Assembly (NCBI RefSeq): GCF_000582785.1
Contig: NZ_HG931173.1
Coordinates: forward strand, 359,602-423,601
From: Candidatus Blastococcus massiliensis AP3
Lineage (GTDB): Bacteria > Actinomycetota > Actinomycetes > Mycobacteriales > Geodermatophilaceae
Reading direction: 5' to 3'
Length of the DNA: 64,000 nucleotides
Under the pieces are notes generated by a model. The model had not been told where the DNA came from and made no database searches. It saw only the letters and a program-made list of their open reading frames with translations. The position numbers and the translations under genes are program-made. Of this stretch, positions 5,608 through 16,195 are shown one piece after another; the first letter of the stretch is position 1, and every line of letters begins with the position of its first letter.

Positions 5608-7031
<1,424 letters not shown>

Positions 7032-7044
<13 letters not shown>

Positions 7045-8150
7045 ACCTCGCTCTCCCCTGACCTGCGGTTTCGTCCGCGGGCAGGTCCCGTAGTCCGCAC
7101 AGAGTCCGCACGAGCCGCCAGAACCAGACCGACGGCGGCTCGTGCGGACTCGTCGCTGTCGGGCCACAGGTGGCCGTAGGTGTCCAGCGTCGTCTTCGCC
7201 GAGCCGTGCCGGAGTCGGTGCTGAACGACCTTCACGTCCAGGCCGCTGCCGATCAGCAGCGACGCCAGGTAGTGCCTCAGGTCGTGGAACCGGAACTCCT
7301 CGGGCAGGCCGGGCACCTTCGGCCGGGCGGCCCGCACGGCCCGCTCGATCGCCCAGGTGGACGTCTGGCGGCCGAGCCCGTCGGTGACGACGTACTCGCC
7401 GCCCCAGCGCTTGACCGCGGCGGCCAGCTCGAGCGCGAGCTCCTGTGGGATCGGCAGCGGGGTCTTCGACGTCTCGGTCTTGAGCTCCTCCCCCGCGCCC
7501 TGCACCGTCGGGTGCACCACGCCGCGCATGAAGTCGACGTCGACCAGGCGCAGCCCCACGGCCTCGGCGGTGCGTAGGCCCACGAACGCGCCGAGCAGGA
7601 TCGCCGGGCGCAGATGCTCGGCGACGGCGTCGTGGAGCGCCCACACCTGCTTCGTGGTGGCCACGTAGGGCCGCTGCTTGCCCTTCCCCGGCGAGGTCCG
7701 GCGCGAGCACGGGTTCCGTGGGAGCAGCCCGTCGTGCACGGCGTCGCTCATGATCTGGGACAGCCGCGAGTGCAGCGCGTAGACGTAGCTGTCGGCCAGG
7801 CCGTCGGCCTTGAGCTTCGCCGTCCACGATCGCACCGCTGACGGCCGGACGTTCGCGAGCTGTTGCCGGCCGAACCCTGCCTTGATGTGCGCGATGTGCA
7901 CCTCGGCCTGGCGCACCGTCCGCGGCCGCCGCGTCGCGTAGCCGGCCAACCAGGTGTCACACCAGTCGCTCACCGACGTCCGCGCGGTCTTCGGGTCCAC
8001 GAAGGTGCCCGTGACCAGGGCGGTGGTCTGCTCGTCGAGCCAACGCTGAGCGTCGACCTTCCGCTTGAAGTGCCTGGCGTGCTCCTTGCCGTTCGCGTCG
8101 CGGAATCGCGGCCTGTACGTGCCGTCGGGCCGGCGGGCGATGCTCGCCAT
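7032..8150 (-). CDS. int: Tyrosine recombinase, integrase of the glnA element
   Basis: Site-specific recombinase of 372 residues that would integrate and excise the element at the glnA 3' end. It has an N-terminal AP2-like arm-binding domain ([18 protein letters not shown] with [19 protein letters not shown]), a SAM-like core-binding domain (about 65-150) and the catalytic domain: box I Arg in [16 protein letters not shown], HxLRH in [12 protein letters not shown], the [16 protein letters not shown] box with the nucleophilic Tyr. ATG at 8150 overlaps the stop of the upstream regulator gene (ATGA). The last codons read through the attachment core and converge on glnA with a 13-bp overlap, so the integrase C-terminus is encoded antisense to the glnA stop. 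The position beside attL is typical for such elements. Confidence 0.95.
7060..7087. terminator. Hairpin just inside attL, possible replacement glnA terminator
   Basis: GACCTGC (7060-7066) pairs with GCAGGTC (7081-7087), with an additional short CGG/CCG pairing inside. It lies 15 bases after the glnA stop, within the end of the integrase frame. It could terminate glnA transcripts now that the original terminator is 9 kb away. No T tract is present. Confidence 0.4.
7092..7150. repeat. Integrase arm-type sites at the left end (AGTCCGCAC repeats)
   Basis: AGTCCGCAC occurs at 7092-7100 and 7103-7111 (11-bp period) and inverted at 7142-7150. The second copy and the inverted copy are ends of a perfect 17-bp inverted repeat (7103-7119 against 7134-7150, 14-nt spacer). 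The same core AGTCCGCA recurs three times with 11-bp period at the right end. Direct repeats near both ends of an integrase element are the usual layout of arm-type binding sites. Confidence 0.55.
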
Positions 8151-8740
8151 CAGTCCTCGCCCGCCCGCCCCGGCCGCGCCGGCCCCAACTTCCCCGCCTC
8201 TCGCGCCCGCTGTACCCACAGGGCCGCGGTGCGGTGAGCAATCTGAAAGCTTGAGGCAACGGCGAGCGTCGGTTTCCCTGTGCTCAGCCCCTCCCGGTAG
8301 ACCCTCGCCACGTCGTCCAGGGATGGCCGGGTGCCGCTGCGCCTCCGCGCCCGCCTGGCGGCGATCGCCGCGCGTGCTGCGGCCTCGTCGTCTCCCAGGA
8401 TCTCCCACACGCCGTCAGCCACCGGCTCGTAGCGCACGCCGACCGTCTCCGCTACCCGCTCCAGCACCGCGCTGACGTTGATCGCGCGGAAGTCAGCGGA
8501 GCGCAGGCCTCTCGTGCCCTCGGGTGCACGGAAGCACCACTGCACTAGTTCCGGCTGGCCCTCCCGGACTTCCACGAGTGCGCCGAACGACGGCGCGCCG
8601 CCCAGGCCCTCGAAGTCGACCTCGACCTTCATGGGCATCGCCGCGTCCGACCCGATGCCCTCGTGCTCGAGGGACATCTGCCGGATGGACACGTTGCCCG
8701 GCCACGGCCAGACCCGCGTGCCGCTGTGCTCTGCCGTCAT
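8150..8740 (-). CDS. Element-encoded protein with C-terminal helix-turn-helix, upstream of int
   Basis: The 196-residue product has a unique N-terminal part (residues 1-120) and a C-terminal DNA-binding-like region: SLDDVARVYREGL, then TLAVASSFQIAHRTAALWVQ as the helix-turn-helix, ending in KLGPARPGRAGED. That ending recurs in small regulators encoded beside integrases of actinobacterial elements, judging from memory of similar loci. ATG at 8740 starts immediately beside the divergent control region; the frame is open further upstream but would overlap the excisionase and later genes antisense. Its stop overlaps the integrase start (ATGA), so the two are translationally coupled. A role in controlling int/xis is inference. 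Confidence 0.75.
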   Translation of the reverse strand: MTAEHSGTRVWPWPGNVSIRQMSLEHEGIGSDAAMPMKVEVDFEGLGGAPSFGALVEVREGQPELVQWCFRAPEGTRGLRSADFRAINVSAVLERVAETVGVRYEPVADGVWEILGDDEAAARAAIAARRARRRSGTRPSLDDVARVYREGLSTGKPTLAVASSFQIAHRTAALWVQRAREAGKLGPARPGRAGED

Positions 8741-8857
8741 GCTCGCAACCTCGCATCCAACCCACCTGCTTGCGTAGCAGACAACCTCGCACATGCCATG
8801 CAGGCTGTCAACAACTCGGAAGTTGTCCGGGCTTACACGAGAAGGAGATGACCACGG
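8741..8857. promoter_or_regulatory. Divergent control region between the regulator-int and xis operons
   Basis: On the minus strand a consensus -35 TTGACA (8806-8811) is followed after 17 bases by GAGGTT (8783-8788), a plausible promoter for the regulator and integrase. The 10-base sequence CAACCTCGCA occurs twice (8746-8755 and 8782-8791), the second copy covering that -10. A palindrome ACAACT-n4-AGTTGT (8811-8826) abuts the -35. The excisionase has a strong ribosome site GAAGGAG at 8841-8847. The layout is that of an operator region for a lysogeny-type switch. Confidence 0.5.
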
Positions 8858-9058
8858 GTGAGCGAACTCCTGGACACGGACCAGGTAGCAGAGATGACCG
8901 GCCTGGCGGTGAACACCCTCCGGAGCTGGCGCTGGCAGGGCGTCGGACCGCGGTCGTTCAAGGTCGGTCGCTGGGTTCGGTACGAGCGCAGCGACGTCGT
9001 CGCGTGGCTGGCCGCACAGAAGGCGTCGACCTCCGCCGGCGGAGCGCCGGCGGCTTGA
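8858..9058 (+). CDS. xis: Excisionase-like MerR-type helix-turn-helix protein
   Basis: The 66-residue protein is a winged-helix DNA-binding domain of the excisionase/AlpA type: LLDTDQVAEMTGLAVNTLRS forms the helix-turn-helix, RWVRYERSDVVAWLAAQ the wing and last helix. Such proteins direct integrases toward excision. GTG at 8858 is preceded by GAAGGAG at ten bases; an ATG at 8848 is in another frame and reads no recognisable protein. It is the first gene of the rightward operon and is divergent from the integrase operon, the usual arrangement in satellites and integrative elements. Confidence 0.85.
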   Translation: MSELLDTDQVAEMTGLAVNTLRSWRWQGVGPRSFKVGRWVRYERSDVVAWLAAQKASTSAGGAPAA

Positions 9059-9062
9059 GTTG

Positions 9063-9611
9063 GTGTGGACCAAGTTGGGCGACGAGTTCAACGACGCCGC
9101 GGCAGACCTCTCCGACGCCGCGGCGCGCACCCACGTCGACGCGCTGCTGTGGTCGAACCGCCGGCTCCTCGACCTGCTCGTGCCGAAGCGCGACCTCCGA
9201 CGCTTCGCCTTCTCCCCAGCCGTGGACGTCAGCGACGAGGACGGCGGCCAGGTCGTCGCCGAGCTCGTCGCGGCCGGCTGGTGGGAAGACCGGGGTGACG
9301 CCTGGTACATCGGCCTGCGCTGGCCTGAATGGCAGCTCGAGCGGGGCCAGGTCGAGGAACGCCGCGAGCGGGAGACAGCGAAGAAGCGGAGACAGCGAGC
9401 CCACGCCCGGGGTGACCACTCGCTGTGTTCGGCGCCTTGTTCTTCAGAGGTCCCCGTCCCGTCCCGGGTCCCGGGGGGTAGTCCCCGGGGGACAGTTCCC
9501 AGCATTGTCCCCCGGGGTGTCCCGGGGGGACAGCTCTGCCGCGAGCACATGCTCGGTCGCTCCCCTGACTCGTGCCCGGGCTGCGCCGCCGACCGGAAGG
9601 CGGCCGGATAG
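9063..9611 (+). CDS. Winged-helix, replication-initiator-like protein of the element
   Basis: About 182 residues. The N-terminal 110 residues (MWTKLGDEFNDAAADLSDAA, then LLWSNRRLLDLLVPKRDLRR and VVAELVAAGWWEDRGDAWYI) look like the helical/winged-helix domain seen at the N-terminus of phage replisome-organiser proteins. A basic stretch ERRERETAKKRRQRAH follows. The last 70 residues are Pro/Gly/Ser/Arg-rich and encoded by four GC-rich iteron-like repeats (9468-9532). Replication genes with the origin inside the coding sequence are common in phages. GTG at 9063 is preferred to TTG at 9060. Function is inference; no polymerase, primase or helicase motif is present anywhere in the element. Confidence 0.6.
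   Translation: MWTKLGDEFNDAAADLSDAAARTHVDALLWSNRRLLDLLVPKRDLRRFAFSPAVDVSDEDGGQVVAELVAAGWWEDRGDAWYIGLRWPEWQLERGQVEERRERETAKKRRQRAHARGDHSLCSAPCSSEVPVPSRVPGGSPRGTVPSIVPRGVPGGQLCREHMLGRSPDSCPGCAADRKAAG
9468..9532. repeat. Iteron-like GC-rich repeats inside the replication-type gene, possible origin
   Basis: Four related 13-14 bp units, GTCCCGGGGGGTA (9468-9480), GTCCCCGGGGGACA (9481-9494), GTCCCCCGGGGTG (9507-9519) and GTCCCGGGGGGACA (9519-9532), lie within 65 bases. Each is nearly palindromic. The encoded residues are a low-complexity P/G/S/R stretch, so the DNA rather than the protein seems to be conserved. Confidence 0.5.
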
Positions 9612-9812
9612 ATGGCCGCCTACCGGGACCGCACTGGCGAGTTGCACGACGAAGAGCCCGCTGATCTACCCGAGCCTCACGACGCGCTGTGCCGCGGCGG
9701 CTGGCTTCCCATGACGACCGACGGTCGGGCCCGGCCCTGCCTCACCTGCCGTCCCCACCTACGCGGCCGCGCCGAGCGGCTGCGTTCCCAGCTGACAGGA
9801 GAACTGCCCTGA
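9612..9812 (+). CDS. Small zinc-finger-like protein
   Basis: The 66-residue product contains ALCRGGWLPMTTDGRARPCL followed by TCRPHLRGRAERLRSQL. The Cys-n-CxxC-xx-His pattern suggests a single zinc site followed by a basic helix. The ATG directly abuts the stop of the preceding gene (TAGATG). Similar Cys/His mini-proteins occur in actinophage replication regions, which is my only hint to function. The family is not recognised with certainty. Confidence 0.6.
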   Translation: MAAYRDRTGELHDEEPADLPEPHDALCRGGWLPMTTDGRARPCLTCRPHLRGRAERLRSQLTGELP

Positions 9813-9994
9813 AGATCCAGATCCTCGGTGTGCGAGGCCGGCGCTCCAGCTCACCGTCCGTCGTCGCCACCGTCGACGACCACCTGGTCCAGTGGCGCCC
9901 CAGCGGCTGGCTCTGCGAGTGCGACGTCGACGACTGCCCCCACGTCGACGCGGTCGCCGAGCTGCTCGACCCTCGCGTGACCGGAGGGCACTGA
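9809..9994 (+). CDS. SWIM-type zinc finger mini-protein, probable CTG start
   Basis: The reading frame encodes about 61 residues ending WLCECDVDDCPHVDAVAELL. The CxC-n-CxH spacing (CECDVDDCPH) is that of a SWIM zinc finger, a domain that binds DNA or proteins in transposon- and helicase-associated contexts. The best start is CTG at 9809, which overlaps the previous stop (CTGA) and is preceded by CAGGAGA (9796-9802). No ATG or GTG in a comparable position would keep the leading beta strand KIQILGVRG, so a rare start codon is inferred. It overlaps the next gene by one base (TGATG). Confidence 0.6.
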   Translation: MKIQILGVRGRRSSSPSVVATVDDHLVQWRPSGWLCECDVDDCPHVDAVAELLDPRVTGGH

Positions 9995-10854
9995 TGCCGT
10001 TCCGGTTCTTCTTCGCCTACACCGATCCCGAAGACACCCTCAGCAGCTGCGCTGTGGTGCCTCGGCAGGGGATCCTGCCCGACCGGTGGGCGCCGCTGCT
10101 CTCCCCCTGCCGCTTCACCACCTGGCCGGCCGGATGGGTGCGCTCCACCTGCGCCCAGTGTCCCGAGCCGCCTGGTGACCACTGCCGCTGCGGTCTGACC
10201 GTGATGACGAGAGGCGACCAGCTCGCCCGCTGGCTCCTGAGCGCCTACGGGCGGTACTTCATCCCACCCGCCGAGTACGGACGCCTGGCCGTCGCACGGA
10301 TCTCGGTGCGAGGCCGGCTGGCGCCTCTCGACGACGCCTACCTCGAGCACGACCAGCGCCGAGCACGCAGCTTCACCGGCTGGGACGGCGACCTCGTGTC
10401 CACGCCAGATGAGTGGCGAGCCGAGCACGCCAAGGTCGTGGAGCTCTGGCTGCCCGCGGCCGCCGCGAGGTTCGAGCCGGTGCTCAAGAAGACGTACTCA
10501 GTTCCGGTGCACGTGAGCGCGCTGTCGGGTCACTCCTGGCTGCGAGAAACCTTCCCGGAGCCACGCCACATGGCGCTGATGGACGTCCTGGAGGCAGCGG
10601 ACAAGCACCAGCACCAGCGTCGCGCCGCTGGTGCGGGCGCTGGTGATCCGGCTCTCGCGTTGGCGCAGTCGATCGCTACTCGGACGCGCCAGCTCCTCAC
10701 AGAGCTCAGCGAGGGTGGGGGCGGGGACCCCTCCCCCGCCCCCGCTCGCCGTGTGACCGCCGGTTCTGCGGAAAATGCCCCGCGGGACTCTGGAGAACTC
10801 GCCCAACCGGCCGCGCCGCGTGCCGGGCGACGACCCCGCAGGGGTGGTCACTGA
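9994..10854 (+). CDS. Hypothetical protein of the element, Cys-rich N-terminal part
   Basis: The 286-residue protein is not recognised. Residues 45-75 hold a cysteine cluster (STCAQCPEPPGDHCRCG) that could bind zinc. The middle (residues 80-200) is rich in Trp and Leu with a helical look, and the last 60 residues are Gly/Pro/Arg/Ala-rich and probably disordered. The ATG overlaps the previous stop by one base (TGATG), and its stop overlaps the small terminase start in the same way, so it is translated in a coupled chain. It lies between replication-type genes and the terminase and could belong to either module. Confidence 0.6.
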   Translation: MPFRFFFAYTDPEDTLSSCAVVPRQGILPDRWAPLLSPCRFTTWPAGWVRSTCAQCPEPPGDHCRCGLTVMTRGDQLARWLLSAYGRYFIPPAEYGRLAVARISVRGRLAPLDDAYLEHDQRRARSFTGWDGDLVSTPDEWRAEHAKVVELWLPAAAARFEPVLKKTYSVPVHVSALSGHSWLRETFPEPRHMALMDVLEAADKHQHQRRAAGAGAGDPALALAQSIATRTRQLLTELSEGGGGDPSPAPARRVTAGSAENAPRDSGELAQPAAPRAGRRPRRGGH

Positions 10855-11387
10855 TGGCCGGCCGCGGCTTCCCACCCAAGGACCCTCGCCTCCTGTCACG
10901 CCCCCGAGACAGCCGCCGGCGCGGCGAGGTTCAGGAGGTCGCCGCACCACCGGCCCGGCAACCCACCCTGCCGCGAGACATCGACTGGCATCCGCGCACA
11001 CGCGCCTGGTGGCGGGACTGGAAGCGCTGGCCGCTGGCCGACTCCTTCACCGCCGGCGACTGGTCCTTCCTGCTCGACACCGCGCTCATGCACCACCGCA
11101 TGTGGGCCAAGGGCGAGATGAAGTGGGCCTCCGAGATCCGCCTCCGCGTCGCCAAGTACGGGGCCACGCCCGAGGACCGCCAACGCCTTCGAGTCCAGTT
11201 CACCGATCCAGCGGCCCAGGACCCGCCCAACCAGCGCGGCGCCCGCGGCCGCGCCCGCACGCCGTCTCACCTCGCGGCCGTGCCCGACGACCCAGCAACT
11301 CGACCACCCGACCCCCGCTTGGTCCTGTACGCGACACAGCAGCCCGCCGAGCGGCCACCACACACCGAAGGAGACCCCCCAGCGTGA
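10854..11387 (+). CDS. Phage small terminase subunit-like protein
   Basis: Small terminase subunits recognise packaging sites on phage DNA. The 177-residue product resembles actinophage forms: a basic disordered N-terminus, then PRDIDWHPRTRAWWRDWKRW and FTAGDWSFLLDTALMHHRMW, followed by the family hallmark EIRLRVAKYGATPEDRQRLR (about residues 99-118). A Pro/Arg-rich tail follows. No large subunit (ATPase/nuclease) is encoded in the element. In satellites that carry their own small subunit this redirects a helper phage's packaging motor, which is the inferred role here. The start overlaps the previous stop (TGATG). Confidence 0.75.
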   Translation: MAGRGFPPKDPRLLSRPRDSRRRGEVQEVAAPPARQPTLPRDIDWHPRTRAWWRDWKRWPLADSFTAGDWSFLLDTALMHHRMWAKGEMKWASEIRLRVAKYGATPEDRQRLRVQFTDPAAQDPPNQRGARGRARTPSHLAAVPDDPATRPPDPRLVLYATQQPAERPPHTEGDPPA

Positions 11388-11704
11388 TCACCATCCCCGA
11401 CAGCGTCACCGACCCCGAGGCGCCCGACGGCGCCTGCCCCGTGCGCAACTGCGGGCAGCCGCCCGAGGATCCTCGCCGCCAGTGGTGTGAACTGCACGAG
11501 CTCGCGGGCCGGCTGCTCGCGATGGGTCGGGCCACGACGTGGCAGGACGCGCTCCAGCTCGCCGGCGGCTCTCCTCAGCACGTCCGTTTCGAGAGCGGCG
11601 TGCGCCTCCTCGAGGACGCCGACGGCCGCCCCGCCGGCGTCAGCGGGCGCACCGCCACGGCGACGATGACCTACCGACTCGACCCGAACAGGCCGCTCAC
11701 TTGA
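11384..11704 (+). CDS. Small Cys-containing protein between terminase and scaffold genes
   Basis: The 106-residue product starts at GTG 11384, overlapping the terminase stop (GTGA) with GAAGGAG at 11367-11373 upstream. It contains ACPVRNCGQPPEDPRRQWCE followed by LHELAG, a Cys-x4-Cys...Cys-x2-His pattern that could hold one zinc ion. The remainder is not recognised. Position in the head-gene cluster suggests a role in packaging or assembly, but this is only context. Confidence 0.6.
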   Translation: MITIPDSVTDPEAPDGACPVRNCGQPPEDPRRQWCELHELAGRLLAMGRATTWQDALQLAGGSPQHVRFESGVRLLEDADGRPAGVSGRTATATMTYRLDPNRPLT

Positions 11705-12027
11705 GCACCCCCGCCTGCCCCGAGTGCGGCCGCGAACAGCTGGAAGACCACCCCGCGGGCCTGCTGTTCCAGCACTCCCAGGCCTGCACCCTGCTCGCGG
11801 CCGAAGACGCGCGCCGCGTCGCGGATGTCGACCAGGCCAGCCGCGTTGGCTGGCCCTTCACGCGCCCGGCCACCGCGGTCGAGCGCCAGCTCCTCACCGC
11901 GTCCGGGCGGAGCCTCCCCGCCGACGACGCCGAAGCCTTCGTGATCGTCGACTACGCGCTCGCCAACGCCGTCCGCCGCCGCACCTTCCCCACCGCCGAA
12001 CCCATCACCCCCCAGGAGACACCGTGA
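11701..12027 (+). CDS. Small protein with CPxCG zinc knuckle, TTG start
   Basis: The 108-residue product begins at TTG 11701, overlapping the previous stop (TTGA). Its N-terminus STPACPECGREQLEDHPAGL followed by LFQHSQACTLL gives a CxxC...H...C zinc-site pattern. The C-terminal half (residues 45-105) is helical, including SLPADDAEAFVIVDYALANA. I have the impression that similar short proteins accompany scaffold/capsid genes in actinobacterial elements, but no function is known to me. It is coupled to the next gene by a GTGA overlap. Confidence 0.6.
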   Translation: MSTPACPECGREQLEDHPAGLLFQHSQACTLLAAEDARRVADVDQASRVGWPFTRPATAVERQLLTASGRSLPADDAEAFVIVDYALANAVRRRTFPTAEPITPQETP

Positions 12028-12563
12028 CCAACTCCGCTTCCCCGGAGACACCCGACCCCGACGACGCCACCTCGGCGCCGGCCGGCGACGAGCCCGCGGC
12101 CGCCGAGAGCGCCGAACCGGCCTCACCCACACCCGACCATCTCCCGACGGAGGACACCGACCCTCCCTCCGAGCCAGGCGACGGCAACGCTGAAGCAGCC
12201 CGGTACCGGAGAAGGCTCCGCGACGTCGAGAACGAGCGCGACGGGCTCGCCGCCCGCGTGGAGAGCTTCCGCCGCGCGGACGCCGAGCGAGCCGCCAGCC
12301 AGCTGCTCGCCAACCCCTCCGACCTCTGGCTGTTCGCTCAGCCGGCCGACGTCCTCGACGACGCGGGCGACGTCGACGAGACGCGGGTGCGCGAGCTGGC
12401 CACCGCGGTCGTCAGCGAGCGCCCCGGCCTCGGCATACCCCGAGTCCAGATCGTCGACATGGGACAGGGTCGACGCGTCGCCCCAACCTCGGGAGGCGGC
12501 TGGGCCAGCGTGCTGAAGGACTCACAGGGCACCGGGCGACGCAGCCGCACCGGCCGGATCTGA
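12024..12563 (+). CDS. Scaffold-like coiled-coil protein, first of two paralogues
   Basis: The 179-residue product has an acidic, Pro/Ser/Thr-rich N-terminal half (residues 1-55), then a charged coiled coil (AARYRRRLRDVENERDGLAA and RVESFRRADAERAASQLL), then a compact segment PSDLWLFAQPADVLDDAG and a basic Gly-rich end. An acidic disordered region plus coiled coil directly before a capsid gene is the usual look of capsid scaffolds. It shares the coiled coil and the DLWLF-PADVL segment with the next gene. GTG at 12024 overlaps the previous stop and follows CAGGAGA. The scaffold role is inferred from architecture and position. Confidence 0.65.
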   Translation: MTNSASPETPDPDDATSAPAGDEPAAAESAEPASPTPDHLPTEDTDPPSEPGDGNAEAARYRRRLRDVENERDGLAARVESFRRADAERAASQLLANPSDLWLFAQPADVLDDAGDVDETRVRELATAVVSERPGLGIPRVQIVDMGQGRRVAPTSGGGWASVLKDSQGTGRRSRTGRI

Positions 12564-12570
12564 GCCGACC

Positions 12571-12963
12571 GTGCAGCCTGACGATGCCACCGTGGACCAG
12601 TCCTCCGAGCCCGCTCACGACGCCGCCGGCGCTGAGGCGGCCCGATACCGACGGCAGCTGCGAGACGCCGAGCTCGAGCGCGACGGGCTCGCCGCCCGTG
12701 TGGACGGCTTCCGGCGCTCGGCCGCCGAACGGGCCGCGGCCCGCGTGCTACGGGCTCCCGCCGACCTCTGGCTCTTCCACGACCCCGCCGACGTCCTCAA
12801 CGAGCATGGCGACGTCGACGAGGACCTGGTGGAGGACCTGGCCCGTCGACTCACCGACAGCCGTCCGGGCCTCCGCCGGCCAGTGCCGCGTCACGGTGCC
12901 GGCGGACACCGCGCCGAGCAGGTCACCGGCTGGGACGGCGTGCTCAAGGGCTCGGGAACCTGA
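12571..12963 (+). CDS. Scaffold-like coiled-coil protein, second paralogue
   Basis: The 130-residue product repeats the plan of its neighbour: AARYRRQLRDAELERDGLAA, then RVDGFRRSAAERAAARVL, then PADLWLFHDPADVLNEHG and a basic end with GWDGVLKGSG. The acidic N-terminal half is much shorter (about 18 residues against 55). The pair shares long identical DNA stretches in the coiled-coil part, showing tandem gene duplication. Two non-identical scaffold-like proteins could co-assemble or specify different shell sizes, but that is speculation. The start is GTG at 12571, seven bases after the previous stop. Confidence 0.65.
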   Translation: MQPDDATVDQSSEPAHDAAGAEAARYRRQLRDAELERDGLAARVDGFRRSAAERAAARVLRAPADLWLFHDPADVLNEHGDVDEDLVEDLARRLTDSRPGLRRPVPRHGAGGHRAEQVTGWDGVLKGSGT

Positions 12964-12970
12964 CACGGGC

Positions 12971-13029
12971 CGCGCCGATGCGGAACTGTCGGTCGGTTCC
13001 GCTACCGTTCGAGGTGCTGCATCGGCGCG
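12971..13029. promoter_or_regulatory. Nested inverted repeats and putative promoter before the capsid gene
   Basis: An outer perfect 11-bp inverted repeat (CGCGCCGATGC 12971-12981, GCATCGGCGCG 13019-13029) encloses an inner perfect 7-bp repeat (GCGGAAC 12980-12986, GTTCCGC 12996-13002). TACCGT at 13003-13008 fits a -10 hexamer, and GGAAC at 12982 could be an ECF-type -35 although the spacing to CGTT is slightly long. The region is either an operator-rich promoter reserved for the capsid gene or a structured RNA leader. Confidence 0.5.
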
Positions 13030-13134
13030 TGCCAGGTCGCTCCCCGCTGCAGCACGACGCCCCAGGAGGGCACCCCGGGTCGGACAGGCGCCCCCGGATG
13101 AGACCAGAGTCCTTCTTCCCTCCTGGAGAGCCCC

Positions 13135-13983
13135 GTGGCACAGACCACCACCACCGCGTCCGCGATCGTTCCCACCGAGACCGGCGAACTCATCGTCCAG
13201 CCGGTCATCGAGCAGTCCGTGGCCATGCAGGTAGCCACCGTCCGCCGGACGACGACCAAGACCCTCCGCATCCCGGTCGTCACCGCCGACCCCACCGCCA
13301 GGTGGGTGGCCGAGGGCGACGAGATCACCCCCTCGGACCCCACGCTCGACGAGATCGAGGTCACCGCGTCCAAGGTCGCCGGCCTGACCATCATCAGCCG
13401 GGAGCTCGCCGACGACTCCTCGCCCGAGGCCGCCGAAGTCGTCGGCGAAGGACTGGCCCGCGACATCGCCCGCAAGGTCGACCAGGCCTTCTTCGGCAAC
13501 CTGCCGTCACCGGCCCCGGCCGGGCTCGGCTCCCTCCCGACGACCGCCGGCAACGTGCAGACCGTCGACGCCGGCGCCGACTGGACCAACCTCGACCCCT
13601 TCGCCGAGGCCCTGTCCAAGGCCGAACAGGTCGGCGCGGTCATCACCGCATGGGTCACCACGCCCGCCGTCGCCCTGAAGCTGGCCACCCTGAAGGAGGG
13701 CACCGGCTCCAACAAGCCGCTGCTGGGCAACGACCCCGGCGCCCCCACCCGCCGGCAGATCCTCGGCCTGCCGGTCTTCGTCAGCCCCGACGTCGCCGCC
13801 GACACCGTGTGGGGCATCCCCGAGGACCGCGCGGTGATCTGCGTCCGGGAGGACGCCGAGGTCGAGTCCGACCGCTCGGTGTTCTTCACGAGCGACCGCG
13901 TCGCGGTCAAGGCCACGATGCGGGTCGGTTTCGGCTTCGCCCACCGCGCCGCCCTCGTCAAGATCAGCGTCACGCCGGGCTGA
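13135..13983 (+). CDS. HK97-type phage major capsid protein
   Basis: The 282-residue protein matches short HK97-fold major capsid proteins of actinobacterial elements: the N-terminal arm begins SAIVPTETGELIVQPVIEQS, the E-loop region TLRIPVVTADPTARWVAEGD and ELADDSSPEAAEVVGEGLAR follows, then the P/A-domain stretch TTPAVALKLATLKEGTGSNK and the ending VRVGF-like RVGFGFAHRAALVKI. There is no N-terminal delta domain, so scaffolding must come from a separate protein, consistent with the two scaffold-like genes upstream. No head protease or portal is encoded. GTG at 13135 follows CTGGAGAG. The gene ends the rightward operon at a strong terminator. Confidence 0.88.
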   Translation: MAQTTTTASAIVPTETGELIVQPVIEQSVAMQVATVRRTTTKTLRIPVVTADPTARWVAEGDEITPSDPTLDEIEVTASKVAGLTIISRELADDSSPEAAEVVGEGLARDIARKVDQAFFGNLPSPAPAGLGSLPTTAGNVQTVDAGADWTNLDPFAEALSKAEQVGAVITAWVTTPAVALKLATLKEGTGSNKPLLGNDPGAPTRRQILGLPVFVSPDVAADTVWGIPEDRAVICVREDAEVESDRSVFFTSDRVAVKATMRVGFGFAHRAALVKISVTPG

Positions 13984-14006
13984 CGCCCCGGCGCCAGCTC
14001 GAGCAC

Positions 14007-14050
14007 CTCTGGCCCCCGCCGGTTCCCAGGTGAACCGGCGGGGGCCAGAG
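14007..14050. terminator. Strong bidirectional terminator between capsid and recombinase operons
   Basis: A perfect 19-bp stem (14007-14025 against 14032-14050, arm CTCTGGCCCCCGCCGGTTC) with a 6-nt loop is followed by TTCTTCTC. It separates the rightward capsid operon from the leftward operon ending at 14070. Confidence 0.9.
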
Positions 14051-14069
14051 TTCTTCTCGGTCTCTGGGA

Positions 14070-14360
14070 TCAGCCGGGCGGGTGCGGCCGGCGCAGTCGA
14101 GACTCCAGCCGATCGGACTTGTCGGGATCCCCGAACAGGTTGAGCAGGCAGTGGGTGAAGTCACCGGCCCACAGCTCTCGGCCCATCCGGTGCTCCAGGC
14201 ATCCGATGCAGAGCAGGCCGGTTCCGTCGCCCCCGTTCGGCCCGTACTCGCGCCAGATGTGGTCGTGAACCATGTAGTCCTCGGCGCCGGTGTCGTCGCC
14301 GCAGTCACTGCACGGGCCGCGGCTCAGCCGCCGCGACGCGCGCCGGGCAGCTCTGTTCAC
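14070..14360 (-). CDS. Small zinc-ribbon protein downstream of the second recombinase
   Basis: The 96-residue product starts at GTG 14360, overlapping the recombinase stop (GTGA). It has two Cys pairs, SRGPCSDCGDDTGAED and GLLCIGCLEHRMGREL, with the spacing of an HNH-like or zinc-ribbon fold, and contains YMVHDHIWREYG between them. The His residues and paired cysteines raise the possibility of a minimal HNH-like nuclease, but the catalytic Asn/His pattern is not clear. The C-terminus is basic. No confident family assignment. Confidence 0.6.
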   Translation of the reverse strand: MNRAARRASRRLSRGPCSDCGDDTGAEDYMVHDHIWREYGPNGGDGTGLLCIGCLEHRMGRELWAGDFTHCLLNLFGDPDKSDRLESRLRRPHPPG

Positions 14361-15523
14361 GCGCCTCCACCCCCGTCCGGGCTCGTCAACATCGCGGCGG
14401 CCATCACAGCGTTCCGCCGGGCGCTGCCCGGCACCGCGGTGTAGATCATCGTCGTGTTGACGTTGGCGTGGCCCAGGAGCTCCTGGACGGCCCGGTAGTC
14501 GCGCTCGGCGGCGTAGGCAGTGCTCGCGAACCGGTGCCGAAGGGTGTGCGGAGTCCAGTGGTCGGACAGCCGCTCGCGCATGAGCTTGCCCAGGTGCGCC
14601 GGCGTCAGGTGTCCTCCGCGGCCGTTGGGGAACAGCCATCCCCGCGAACGAGAAGACAGCCTCGCGCCCAGATCGTCCGGCAGGGGAACGTCTCGCTCCA
14701 CGCCGCCCTTGCCCGTCACCCGGAGCCACCACCCGTCCGGGCGCTGCACCAGGTCCTCGGTGCGCACCCGGGCGATCTCCGATCGGCGCAGACCGGCGAC
14801 AGCGCCCAGCTCGATCGCATCGGCCTGCCGAACGTCGGCGCCGTCGAGCGCTGACACGATCACCGCGTCAGGGGCGGGACGGGGTAGCGCCCGCGGGTGG
14901 CGCACGGCTGGCAGTTCCGCTGACGGGTCGACCGCGATGCGCGCGGTAGCCACTCCCCAGCGGTAGAAGGCCCGCAGGCTCTGCCTGGCCACACGCAGGG
15001 CTGCCGACCCGACGCCGAGCGATCCCATCCAGGTGGTGAGGTCGTCCAGCTCGAGCTCCCACGGCCCCCACTGAGGATGGGCGCAGGCGAGCCGGCGGAG
15101 TACGTACGTCCGCTGCCGGATCGTCTGCTGACTCTGGCCGGACGCCGACAGCCAGCTGGCCCACGCGTTGAGCTCTGCAGACCAGATTGCCGCGGCGGGT
15201 TGGTGCACCAGAGAGGCGTGGCGCGCGGGGGTGGGGGGTTGGTCGGTCCAGCCTTTCGTCACAGCGAACTCGTAGAACAGCCGGAGGGTCCGCATCCACG
15301 TCCCCCGGGTCTGTCGCGACCATGCCTGCTGCTCGGCGTAAGCCTGCAGGCGCTCACCCGTCACGTCCCAGGGCGATCCAGCGAAAGCGTGGGCCGCCCG
15401 ACGGACCGAGCGCAAGCGGTCCCGGATCGTCCCCTCCGCGAAGCCGTCCGCCCGCAGTCGGGCCTCCCAGCACTCGATCGGCTGTCTCCACTGTTCAGGG
15501 AGCGACCTGGCGGTCATCGTCAT
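14357..15523 (-). CDS. Second tyrosine recombinase with two tandem core-binding-like domains
   Basis: The 388-residue protein has an intact catalytic domain: box I Arg in LGAVAGLRRSEIARVR, HTLRHRF in the HxxR box, LLGHANVNTTMIYT with the nucleophilic Tyr. Unusually, the N-terminal part contains two successive SAM-like segments of about 90 residues: residues 13-100 (FAEGTIRDRLRSVRRAAHAF, then TLRLFYEFAVTKGW) and 112-205 (SQQTIRQRTYVLRRLACAHP, then SLRAFYRWGVATARI). Typical XerC/integrase proteins have one. It has no AP2-like arm domain. ATG at 15523 overlaps the previous stop (ATGA). It could resolve multimers, act on a second site, or belong to a nested element. Confidence 0.85.
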   Translation of the reverse strand: MTMTARSLPEQWRQPIECWEARLRADGFAEGTIRDRLRSVRRAAHAFAGSPWDVTGERLQAYAEQQAWSRQTRGTWMRTLRLFYEFAVTKGWTDQPPTPARHASLVHQPAAAIWSAELNAWASWLSASGQSQQTIRQRTYVLRRLACAHPQWGPWELELDDLTTWMGSLGVGSAALRVARQSLRAFYRWGVATARIAVDPSAELPAVRHPRALPRPAPDAVIVSALDGADVRQADAIELGAVAGLRRSEIARVRTEDLVQRPDGWWLRVTGKGGVERDVPLPDDLGARLSSRSRGWLFPNGRGGHLTPAHLGKLMRERLSDHWTPHTLRHRFASTAYAAERDYRAVQELLGHANVNTTMIYTAVPGSARRNAVMAAAMLTSPDGGGGA

Positions 15524-15888
15524 GCCGCACCCCGCTCTTGCGCGAGCTGGTCCGCCAGGTCCGCGGCCGCGAGCAGCAGGCCGGCGAAGGTTCGAGCCTC
15601 CTGAGCGGTGAGCCCGGCTACAGGTTTGCCGTCCTGGAACTCGTCGACCCCTGCGGCCACCATCGGCGCGCCCAGCTGACGGGCACCGTCCCGGATGCGT
15701 TCCTCGGCGAACAGGTAGGCCCAGACGGGTGCATCGGCCGCCGGCGTCACCGTCGTCTCGTGGAAGCGGATCGGGAGGCCGGTGGCTGTCTCGATGTCCC
15801 ACTCGTCCAGGTGGCAGCCGAGTTGGTAGTCGCACCAGGGCGGGCAGGGATGGGCGTCGGTGGCGTCGGGGTCAGTAGCGTTGCTCAT
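15520..15888 (-). CDS. DUF6907-like small protein, first gene of the recombinase operon
   Basis: The 122-residue product begins with CPPWCDYQLGCHLDEWDIET near residue 15, the Cys/His-rich signature I associate with the DUF6907 family of actinobacteria, followed by a beta-strand region and a C-terminal helical part (LTAQEARTFAGLLLAAADLA). The function is unknown. It starts the reverse-strand trio; the upstream sequence has AAGGACGAG before the ATG at 15888. The family assignment is from memory of the N-terminal motif. Confidence 0.65.
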   Translation of the reverse strand: MSNATDPDATDAHPCPPWCDYQLGCHLDEWDIETATGLPIRFHETTVTPAADAPVWAYLFAEERIRDGARQLGAPMVAAGVDEFQDGKPVAGLTAQEARTFAGLLLAAADLADQLAQERGAA

Positions 15889-15938
15889 GGGTCTCTCGTC
15901 CTTCTAGCCAGGGTGAGGGATCAAGGCCTCGTCTCGGT

Positions 15939-16128
15939 GTCCGCACACCGGGCGGGGCCGTCTTCATCTTGCTGGTCGGGTGCCGACGACTGCTCGTCCC
16001 ACGGTTGAGCGCAGTCCGCAGAAAGTCCGCAGAACGTCCGCAGATCGGCACAACTCACCAACGGTCAGTTGGGGAGAAATCGCAGGTCAAGGCCGGTTGC
16101 GCACATCTCGGCACAACTGACCAACGGT
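15939..16128. repeat. Direct repeats at the right end of the element (putative arm sites)
   Basis: The 243-base stretch 15889-16131 has no gene. AGTCCGCAG occurs at 16013-16021 and 16024-16032, with CGTCCGCAG at 16035-16043: three copies with exactly 11-bp period, matching the AGTCCGCAC copies beside attL. A further GTCCGCAC lies at 15939-15946. In addition a 20-base sequence CGGCACAACTCACCAACGGT is repeated with one change (16046-16065 and 16109-16128), the second copy ending four bases before attR. Confidence 0.6.
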
Positions 16129-16131
16129 GCG

Positions 16132-16162
16132 GCACGAGTTCGCGATGTACTACGACATCTGA
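16132..16162. repeat. attR: right copy of the 31-bp attachment core
   Basis: It duplicates the last codons and stop codon of glnA (7014-7044) with one mismatch, C at 16150. The bases before it (GGTGCG) do not match glnA, marking the element boundary. Confidence 0.9.
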
Positions 16163-16195
16163 TCGCGGACATCTGATCGCGGACATCTGATCTCG
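16154..16195. repeat. Three tandem 14-bp units overlapping attR
   Basis: GACATCTGATCGCG is repeated at 16154-16167 and 16168-16181, with a third copy GACATCTGATCTCG at 16182-16195. The unit starts with the last two codons and the stop of glnA, so the chromosomal flank itself carries a short expansion of the integration site. Confidence 0.85.

Follow-up and report, generated by a model that had tools for sequence, protein, structure and literature searches.

A Probable Replication Origin Inside the Initiator Gene of an Actinobacterial Integrative Element: Clustered Palindromic Units and a G-Rich Tract

Results

The Element and Its Genes

The window (the whole stretch of DNA analyzed, 64 kb in length) comes from an actinobacterial genome of 3.87 Mb and carries a phage-like element of 9.1 kb, spanning positions 7014–16162 and integrated at the 3′ end of glnA. 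The element is bounded by attL (7014–7044, in the glnA 3′ end) and attR (16132–16162), two copies of a 31-bp core with one mismatch (30/31 identical). The identical core is found in the glnA 3′ ends of two further element-bearing genomes. The glnA target is present in 23/23 genus genomes searched, and a second, short att copy in six of these (the window's genome counted in); hence, the glnA 3′ end is a recurrent integration hotspot. Several congeners show the empty site: lacking the element, their glnA runs directly into DNA that corresponds to the window's sequence past attR. A short tandem repeat, TCGCGGACATCTGA, lies directly behind attR (16163–16190), and each of its copies holds the last bases of the att core.

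Within the element, we identified a tyrosine integrase (7032–8147, minus strand; PF00589, E 1.6e-16; phrog_1, E 3.3e-57); an HTH_17 protein, likely an excisionase or regulator (8858–9058, plus strand; PF12728, E 1e-11; phrog_66 excisionase, E 1.3e-10); the replication initiator gene (9060–9611, plus strand; start codon TTG at 9060 or GTG at 9063; 183 aa); a terminase small subunit, TerS (10854–11387, plus strand; PF25673, E 3.3e-29); and an HK97-type major capsid protein (13135–13983, plus strand; PF05065, E 1.2e-36). A second tyrosine recombinase is encoded at 14357–15493 (minus strand; PF00589, E 3e-21), so that one element has two such enzymes. A Pfam search of 15 ORFs of the element recognized no TerL, portal, or protease, leaving TerS and capsid (10854–13983) alone; the element may be a prophage that has decayed or a satellite that has been reduced.

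The Initiator Protein

Residues 1–121 of the product of 9060–9611 match two families of replication initiation proteins, phrog_2447 (E 2e-12) and phrog_3926 (E 1.2e-10), which agrees with the preliminary description, where the repeats had been assigned to a putative replication gene; Pfam gives no match for this ORF. The phrog_2447 match covers profile positions 3–118 of 295, the C-terminal part of the profile being unmatched by the window protein. The N-terminal DNA-binding domain (A2 profile; 9060–9383, plus strand) is winged-helix-like in the structure model and modeled with confidence; residues 139–155, the stretch encoded by the repeats, have pLDDT below 50. A Foldseek search of PDB with the N-domain model yields nothing significant (best E 0.45). 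Upon re-alignment of the hits, winged helices of ORC, plasmid Rep, and DnaD proteins score at the background level of Z 7–8; e.g., DnaD 2vn2 (VIA Z 7.2, rmsd 2.9, 81 aligned) and 4pql (VIA Z 7.3, rmsd 3.1, 83 aligned) both fall inside the background range. A comparison with viral structure models ranks phage DUF1376, HTH, and replisome-organizer proteins highest (best E 4e-4). Neither a helicase nor a helicase loader is recognized in the element by Pfam, or by PHROGs on two of the next three ORFs.

Palindromic Units

Four near-palindromic units are read from the sequence between 9468 and 9532 of the initiator gene. Unit 1 (GTCCCGGGGGGTA, 9468–9480) is degenerate and overlaps the C-rich tract described below; unit 2 (GTCCCCGGGGGACA, 9481–9494) contains an exact site at 9481; unit 3 (GTCCCCCGGGGTGT, 9507–9520) forms an inverted pair with unit 2, the 12-bp arms being separated by 11 nt; and unit 4 (GTCCCGGGGGGACA, 9519–9532) contains an exact site at 9519. 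Exact units are two among the four. According to the coordinates, unit 2 lies in a codon phase different from that of units 1, 3, and 4. The inverted repeat 9483–9494/9506–9517 is able to fold, and no T-run follows the units in the window.

Over the 64 kb, exact GTCCC-N0–4-GGGAC sites number only three (914, 9481, and 9519). Nine of the 195 half-sites (GTCCC or GGGAC) fall within one 85-bp bin, the densest of the window, while at most five per bin are seen in 300 dinucleotide shuffles of the 9.1-kb element. The best 120 bp hold 23 repeated 7-mers on both strands, whereas 5000 synonymous permutations within the gene give 10.0 on average and never more than 20 (p 2e-4); against codon-usage draws, p is 1e-3. 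Near-palindromes with at most one mismatch show no excess across the whole element (5 vs. 6.5 in shuffles): the unusual feature of the units is their clustering, not their number. All four units of the preliminary description are present and clustered beyond the shuffle nulls. The same description had the repeats encode a low-complexity tail; the encoded segment is indeed of low complexity, but it forms an internal low-confidence linker (residues 139–155) rather than the extreme tail, and a short cysteine-containing end comes after it.

The C-Rich Tract and the AT-Rich Patch

Immediately 5′ of the units lies a tract missed earlier, CCCCGTCCCGTCCCGGGTCCC (9452–9472), one of only two sites in the element with four runs of the G3+N1–7 type. 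On the coding strand, the C-rich stretch extends as CCCCGTCCCGTCCCGGGTCCCG over 9452–9473 (G-rich on the minus strand), and 9453–9473 are identical in the two nearest homologues. The window gene and these two homologues have three C-runs at 5-nt spacing and one more after an interruption. The tract adjoins the most AT-rich 15 nt of the gene (9437–9451; 60% AT vs. the gene mean of 28%), a possible unwinding site. The order of modules in the window is AT-rich patch, tract, units, while in most loci read the iterons are followed by the tract; judged from this order, the window's module looks as if it were inverted relative to its near relatives.

Four regular G-runs are a pattern suggesting a G-quadruplex. 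The G4Hunter score at the window's tract is ordinary (2144/63975 positions are equally extreme), and three phages, Liefie, Ardmore, and Mao1, have iterons without a G-run tract; both observations speak against a G-quadruplex as the general nature of the tract.

Homologues and Constraint at the DNA Level

Homology searches gave matches in 9/97, 22/394, 10/396, and 21/397 genomes of overlapping samples; together with named and viral contigs, these samples supplied 62 distinct coding sequences. Named contigs matching the closest relatives are those of Blastococcus xanthinilyticus and Klenkia soli. One further candidate (L009, E 9e-4) looked spurious and is absent from the list. With tblastn at E 1e-5, the window protein has no match in phages or plasmids, nor do two other homologues in phages; scanning viral contigs with the window protein as a single query sequence likewise returned no relative. 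Confinement of the family to islands was considered and dropped after a more phage-like member, L208, matched 388 phage records.

The two nearest homologues (78% and 72% identical) share with the window both the GTCCC..GGGAC units and the 21-nt tract. Here, the first seven tract codons are identical (7/7), while in the DNA-binding domain the same codon is kept at 30/73 three-way identical residues. Over the site, the same-codon fractions among identical residues for the three pairs are 15/17, 14/15, and 17/19, vs. 52/90, 44/79, and 39/77 in the N-domain (Fisher test, 0.014, 0.004, and 0.0015, respectively, the pairs being non-independent). DNA repeats exceed synonymous shuffles (p < 0.01) in 38/62 homologues and fail to do so in 24/62; the passes number 21/31 among high-scoring and 17/31 among low-scoring members, and with the tract masked 20/62 still exceed the shuffles.

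Distant members have other repeated words at the same place (GTCACG..CGTGAC, GTAACG..CGTTAC, GTCAAC..GTTGAC); the window's word itself recurs in distant homologues as tandem units, three in L054 and four in L082. A recognition-helix code common to the iteron words was looked for and none was seen.

Nine homologues have short genes, with the stop codon no more than 110 nt beyond the domain. Significant repeats are found in the 140 nt after the stop codon in seven of them (p 0.001–0.006), the exceptions being L021 and L061; among the phages with short genes (B3, Liefie, Ardmore, Sarge, and Mao1), all five have repeats behind the stop (p 0.001–0.004). The repeats behind 7/9 short genes lie in non-coding DNA, therefore selection acts on the DNA; in terms of sequence comparison, this is the strongest single argument for a module working as DNA. 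The preliminary description had proposed aligning homologues to see whether DNA repeats are conserved while the tail varies, and had named a conserved tail with lost repeats as the counter-case. The alignment bears the proposal out: codons are kept at the site, and the opposite of the counter-case is seen, with the tail absent and the repeats persisting as non-coding DNA (7/9 and 5/5).

The G-Run Tract Across the Family

We defined a strict tract as four GG at an exact 5- or 6-nt period with 80% unit identity. It is found just after the DNA-binding domain in 30/62 homologues and is lacking in 32/62, including the window gene, whose tract is shortened, and its two sisters; controls gave 0/62 upstream, 1/61 downstream, and 1/1240 shuffled regions.

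Blind scans of 2.9 million viral contigs with two bare 18-mers, GGGACGGGACGGGACGGG and GGGTCGGGTCGGGTCGGG, returned at least 120 loci each. Among the matches listed, the tract lies in an ORF with the initiator domain in 53/120 and 54/120 cases, 53–352 nt past the domain end, compared with 0/101 and 3/64 for the reversed patterns. Some ORFs at the other 67 listed loci of the first scan match the replication families phrog_2149, 1408, 9474, and 22470; with ten proteins checked, these matches indicate that the tract probably occurs with more than one initiator family.

Of these 67 listed loci, 21 make up an HNH-containing cluster, counted outside the 53 and with weak A2 scores only, at four loci (E 0.002–0.0036). 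In L124, L126, L185, and 18 other tract loci, the HNH domain is preceded by an initiator-like N-terminus and followed by a GRDGTGRDG linker. This N-terminus was read by eye, and the phage annotation is that of HNH endonucleases; the proteins are perhaps initiator–HNH fusions.

Among 146 relatives scanned for the pattern, 46 genomes have the tract. The coding strand is C-rich in 66 of the 87 distinct tract loci and G-rich in 21. The next 20 nt behind the tract are AT-richer in 56/66 C-tract and 17/21 G-tract loci. A hairpin with arms of at least 6 follows the C-tract in 23/66 loci, compared with four in the control stretch and, in shuffles, 3.3 on average and 12 at most; none of this type was noticed behind the window's tract. 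The hairpin loop is often TAAC or TAAA (e.g., in L372 after 2258, and in L378, L125, and L050). C(UNAC)G loops are stable RNA tetraloops, and an RNA role for these hairpins is possible. In phage MosMoris (L383, at about 2020–2035), the GTAACG iterons are followed by four copies of CCCAAA, which gives the tract a telomere-like form.

Isolated Phages

Sixteen phage loci were fetched, 15 via the L208 domain and one, Poushou, via the query with the HNH cluster; they were hand-picked over the ranking and hence are a non-random sample, in which nine carry the strict tract. A DnaB-type helicase is encoded near or downstream of the homologue in 3/16 loci (Dropshot, Gage, and 1191A). The Dropshot homologue has genes for a helicase loader and a DnaB-like helicase directly behind it; in Gage, where the homologue lies beside a DnaB gene, the repeats and the tract are absent by eye, and so is the strict tract. 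Several of the loci have no terminase gene in the stretch of approximately 3 kb that was read.

Discussion

Given the repeats, their constraint at the DNA level, the initiator family, the family-wide iteron-plus-tract arrangement, and the ends of the element, all of them directly observed, the repeats are likely the replication origin of the 9.1-kb integrative phage-like element, placed inside its own initiator gene, where the initiator would bind and the duplex would open. Dimers of the N-domain would bind the GTCCC..GGGAC units, i.e., iterons that at the same time encode the flexible linker of the protein; the duplex would be opened, or the helicase loaded, at the G-rich/C-rich tract and the small AT-rich patch; and the element would replicate after excision. 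We infer these steps (binding, opening at the tract or the AT patch, helicase recruitment, and excision) from the arrangement. An origin within the initiator gene had been proposed in the preliminary description, and the DNA constraint, the initiator family, and the 3/16 phage loci with a nearby helicase support it. Counting against an origin are the short AT patch, the ordinary G4Hunter score, the 24/62 homologues that fail the shuffle test and the 32/62 that lack the strict tract, phage Gage, and the absence of a recognized helicase or loader in the window's element.

The repeats might instead reflect the protein: a linker of low complexity would then produce the DNA repeats incidentally, through GC-rich codons or slippage. 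The low complexity and low model confidence of the encoded segment would fit, as would the 24/62 homologues not above synonymous shuffles. This explanation is nevertheless largely refuted, and we consider it quite unlikely: the window retains p 2e-4 under synonymous permutation, the tract codons are identical in three homologues, unit 2 is read in a codon phase other than that of units 1, 3, and 4, and the same modules are non-coding in 7/9 short-gene homologues. Palindromic units beside a DNA-binding domain would suit any dimeric regulator, and initiators often autoregulate, so that the protein might bind the repeats as an operator, for operon autoregulation or a lysogeny switch, with no origin involved; yet the sites are found within the gene or after it rather than at its promoter, the tract would be left without a role, and the families are those of replication initiators, some with helicases as neighbors, all of which makes an operator unlikely.

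The element's own TerS, 1.2 kb downstream, and its capsid gene would suit a site for packaging (pac/cos-like) or recombination on which the terminase or a helper phage acts; such a site is very improbable, however, as the modules adjoin the initiator domain in 62 homologues and in phage loci of many kinds, several of which show no terminase gene in the roughly 3 kb read. Finally, GC-rich hairpins could attenuate or end transcription of the gene. The foldable inverted repeat 9483–9494/9506–9517 and the hairpin after the tract in 23/66 C-tract loci point in this direction, but the units differ in sequence and GC content among homologues and yet stay multi-copy, and in the window no T-run stands behind them; an RNA element is scarcely credible as the explanation.

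We regard as probable, and as the best reading, a lambda-O-like origin that lies within the initiator gene and is accompanied by a further tandem tract rich in G. In lambda, ori lies within gene O, where initiator-binding iterons and a special unwinding tract are found mid-gene (PMC7466680). Similarly, the window's repeats, candidate iterons by this analogy, sit inside the initiator gene and encode a linker, and the homologue of phage Dropshot is backed by helicase loader and helicase genes. In contrast to lambda, the palindromic units have another sequence; the conspicuous neighbor is a G-rich tandem tract of 5–6 nt period, with only a weak AT bump; and no loader is recognized in the window's element. 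The likeness described here is one of arrangement.

Counterparts are also found among actinobacterial phages with phrog_2447/phrog_3926 proteins, many of which have iterons and the tract: Microbacterium phage Appa, Gordonia phages Kroos and Ribeye, and Propionibacterium phage B3 share the N-terminal domain family with the window. The window differs from these relatives in its short protein (183 aa) and in having the tract before the iterons, the reverse of most relatives read. In mycobacteriophage RepA extrachromosomal prophage replicons, the initiator gene is sufficient for replication, and the authors of that study suggest an origin next to or within repA, like lambda O, with no repeats found (PMC7157519); the RepA proteins differ from the window's initiator. 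Capsid-forming satellites of Actinomycetota and cf-PICIs are small integrative elements with TerS and capsid genes (PMC10690885), and the window's element resembles them in all these respects; unlike a cf-PICI, with its own capsid, portal, protease, and large and small terminase, it has capsid and TerS alone recognized.

A more general but doubtful proposal is that actinobacterial phages and islands share a modular origin, in which initiator-specific iterons are combined with a fixed-period G-run tract (GGGAC, GGGTC, GGACA, GGTCT, GGGTTT, etc.). The tract would be carried by several initiator families and could switch to the other strand or move out of the coding region; flexible in sequence and perhaps able to form a G-quadruplex, it might open the duplex or load the helicase, and so take the part in high-GC genomes that the AT-rich tract has in lambda. 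A description of the G-run tract was not found in the literature searched, most subscription journals being outside its coverage; the kind of origin is known, while the wider iteron-plus-tract arrangement is apparently undescribed.

To our knowledge, the origins of most temperate actinophages are unmapped. The tract is searchable as plain DNA, and nearly half of the listed loci lie in initiator genes, so that origins could be predicted for hundreds of phages and used in building replicons for Gordonia, Microbacterium, and mycobacteria. The arrangement raises the question of how a G-rich element serves initiation, and would represent an origin conserved independently of the protein code that usually overlaps it.
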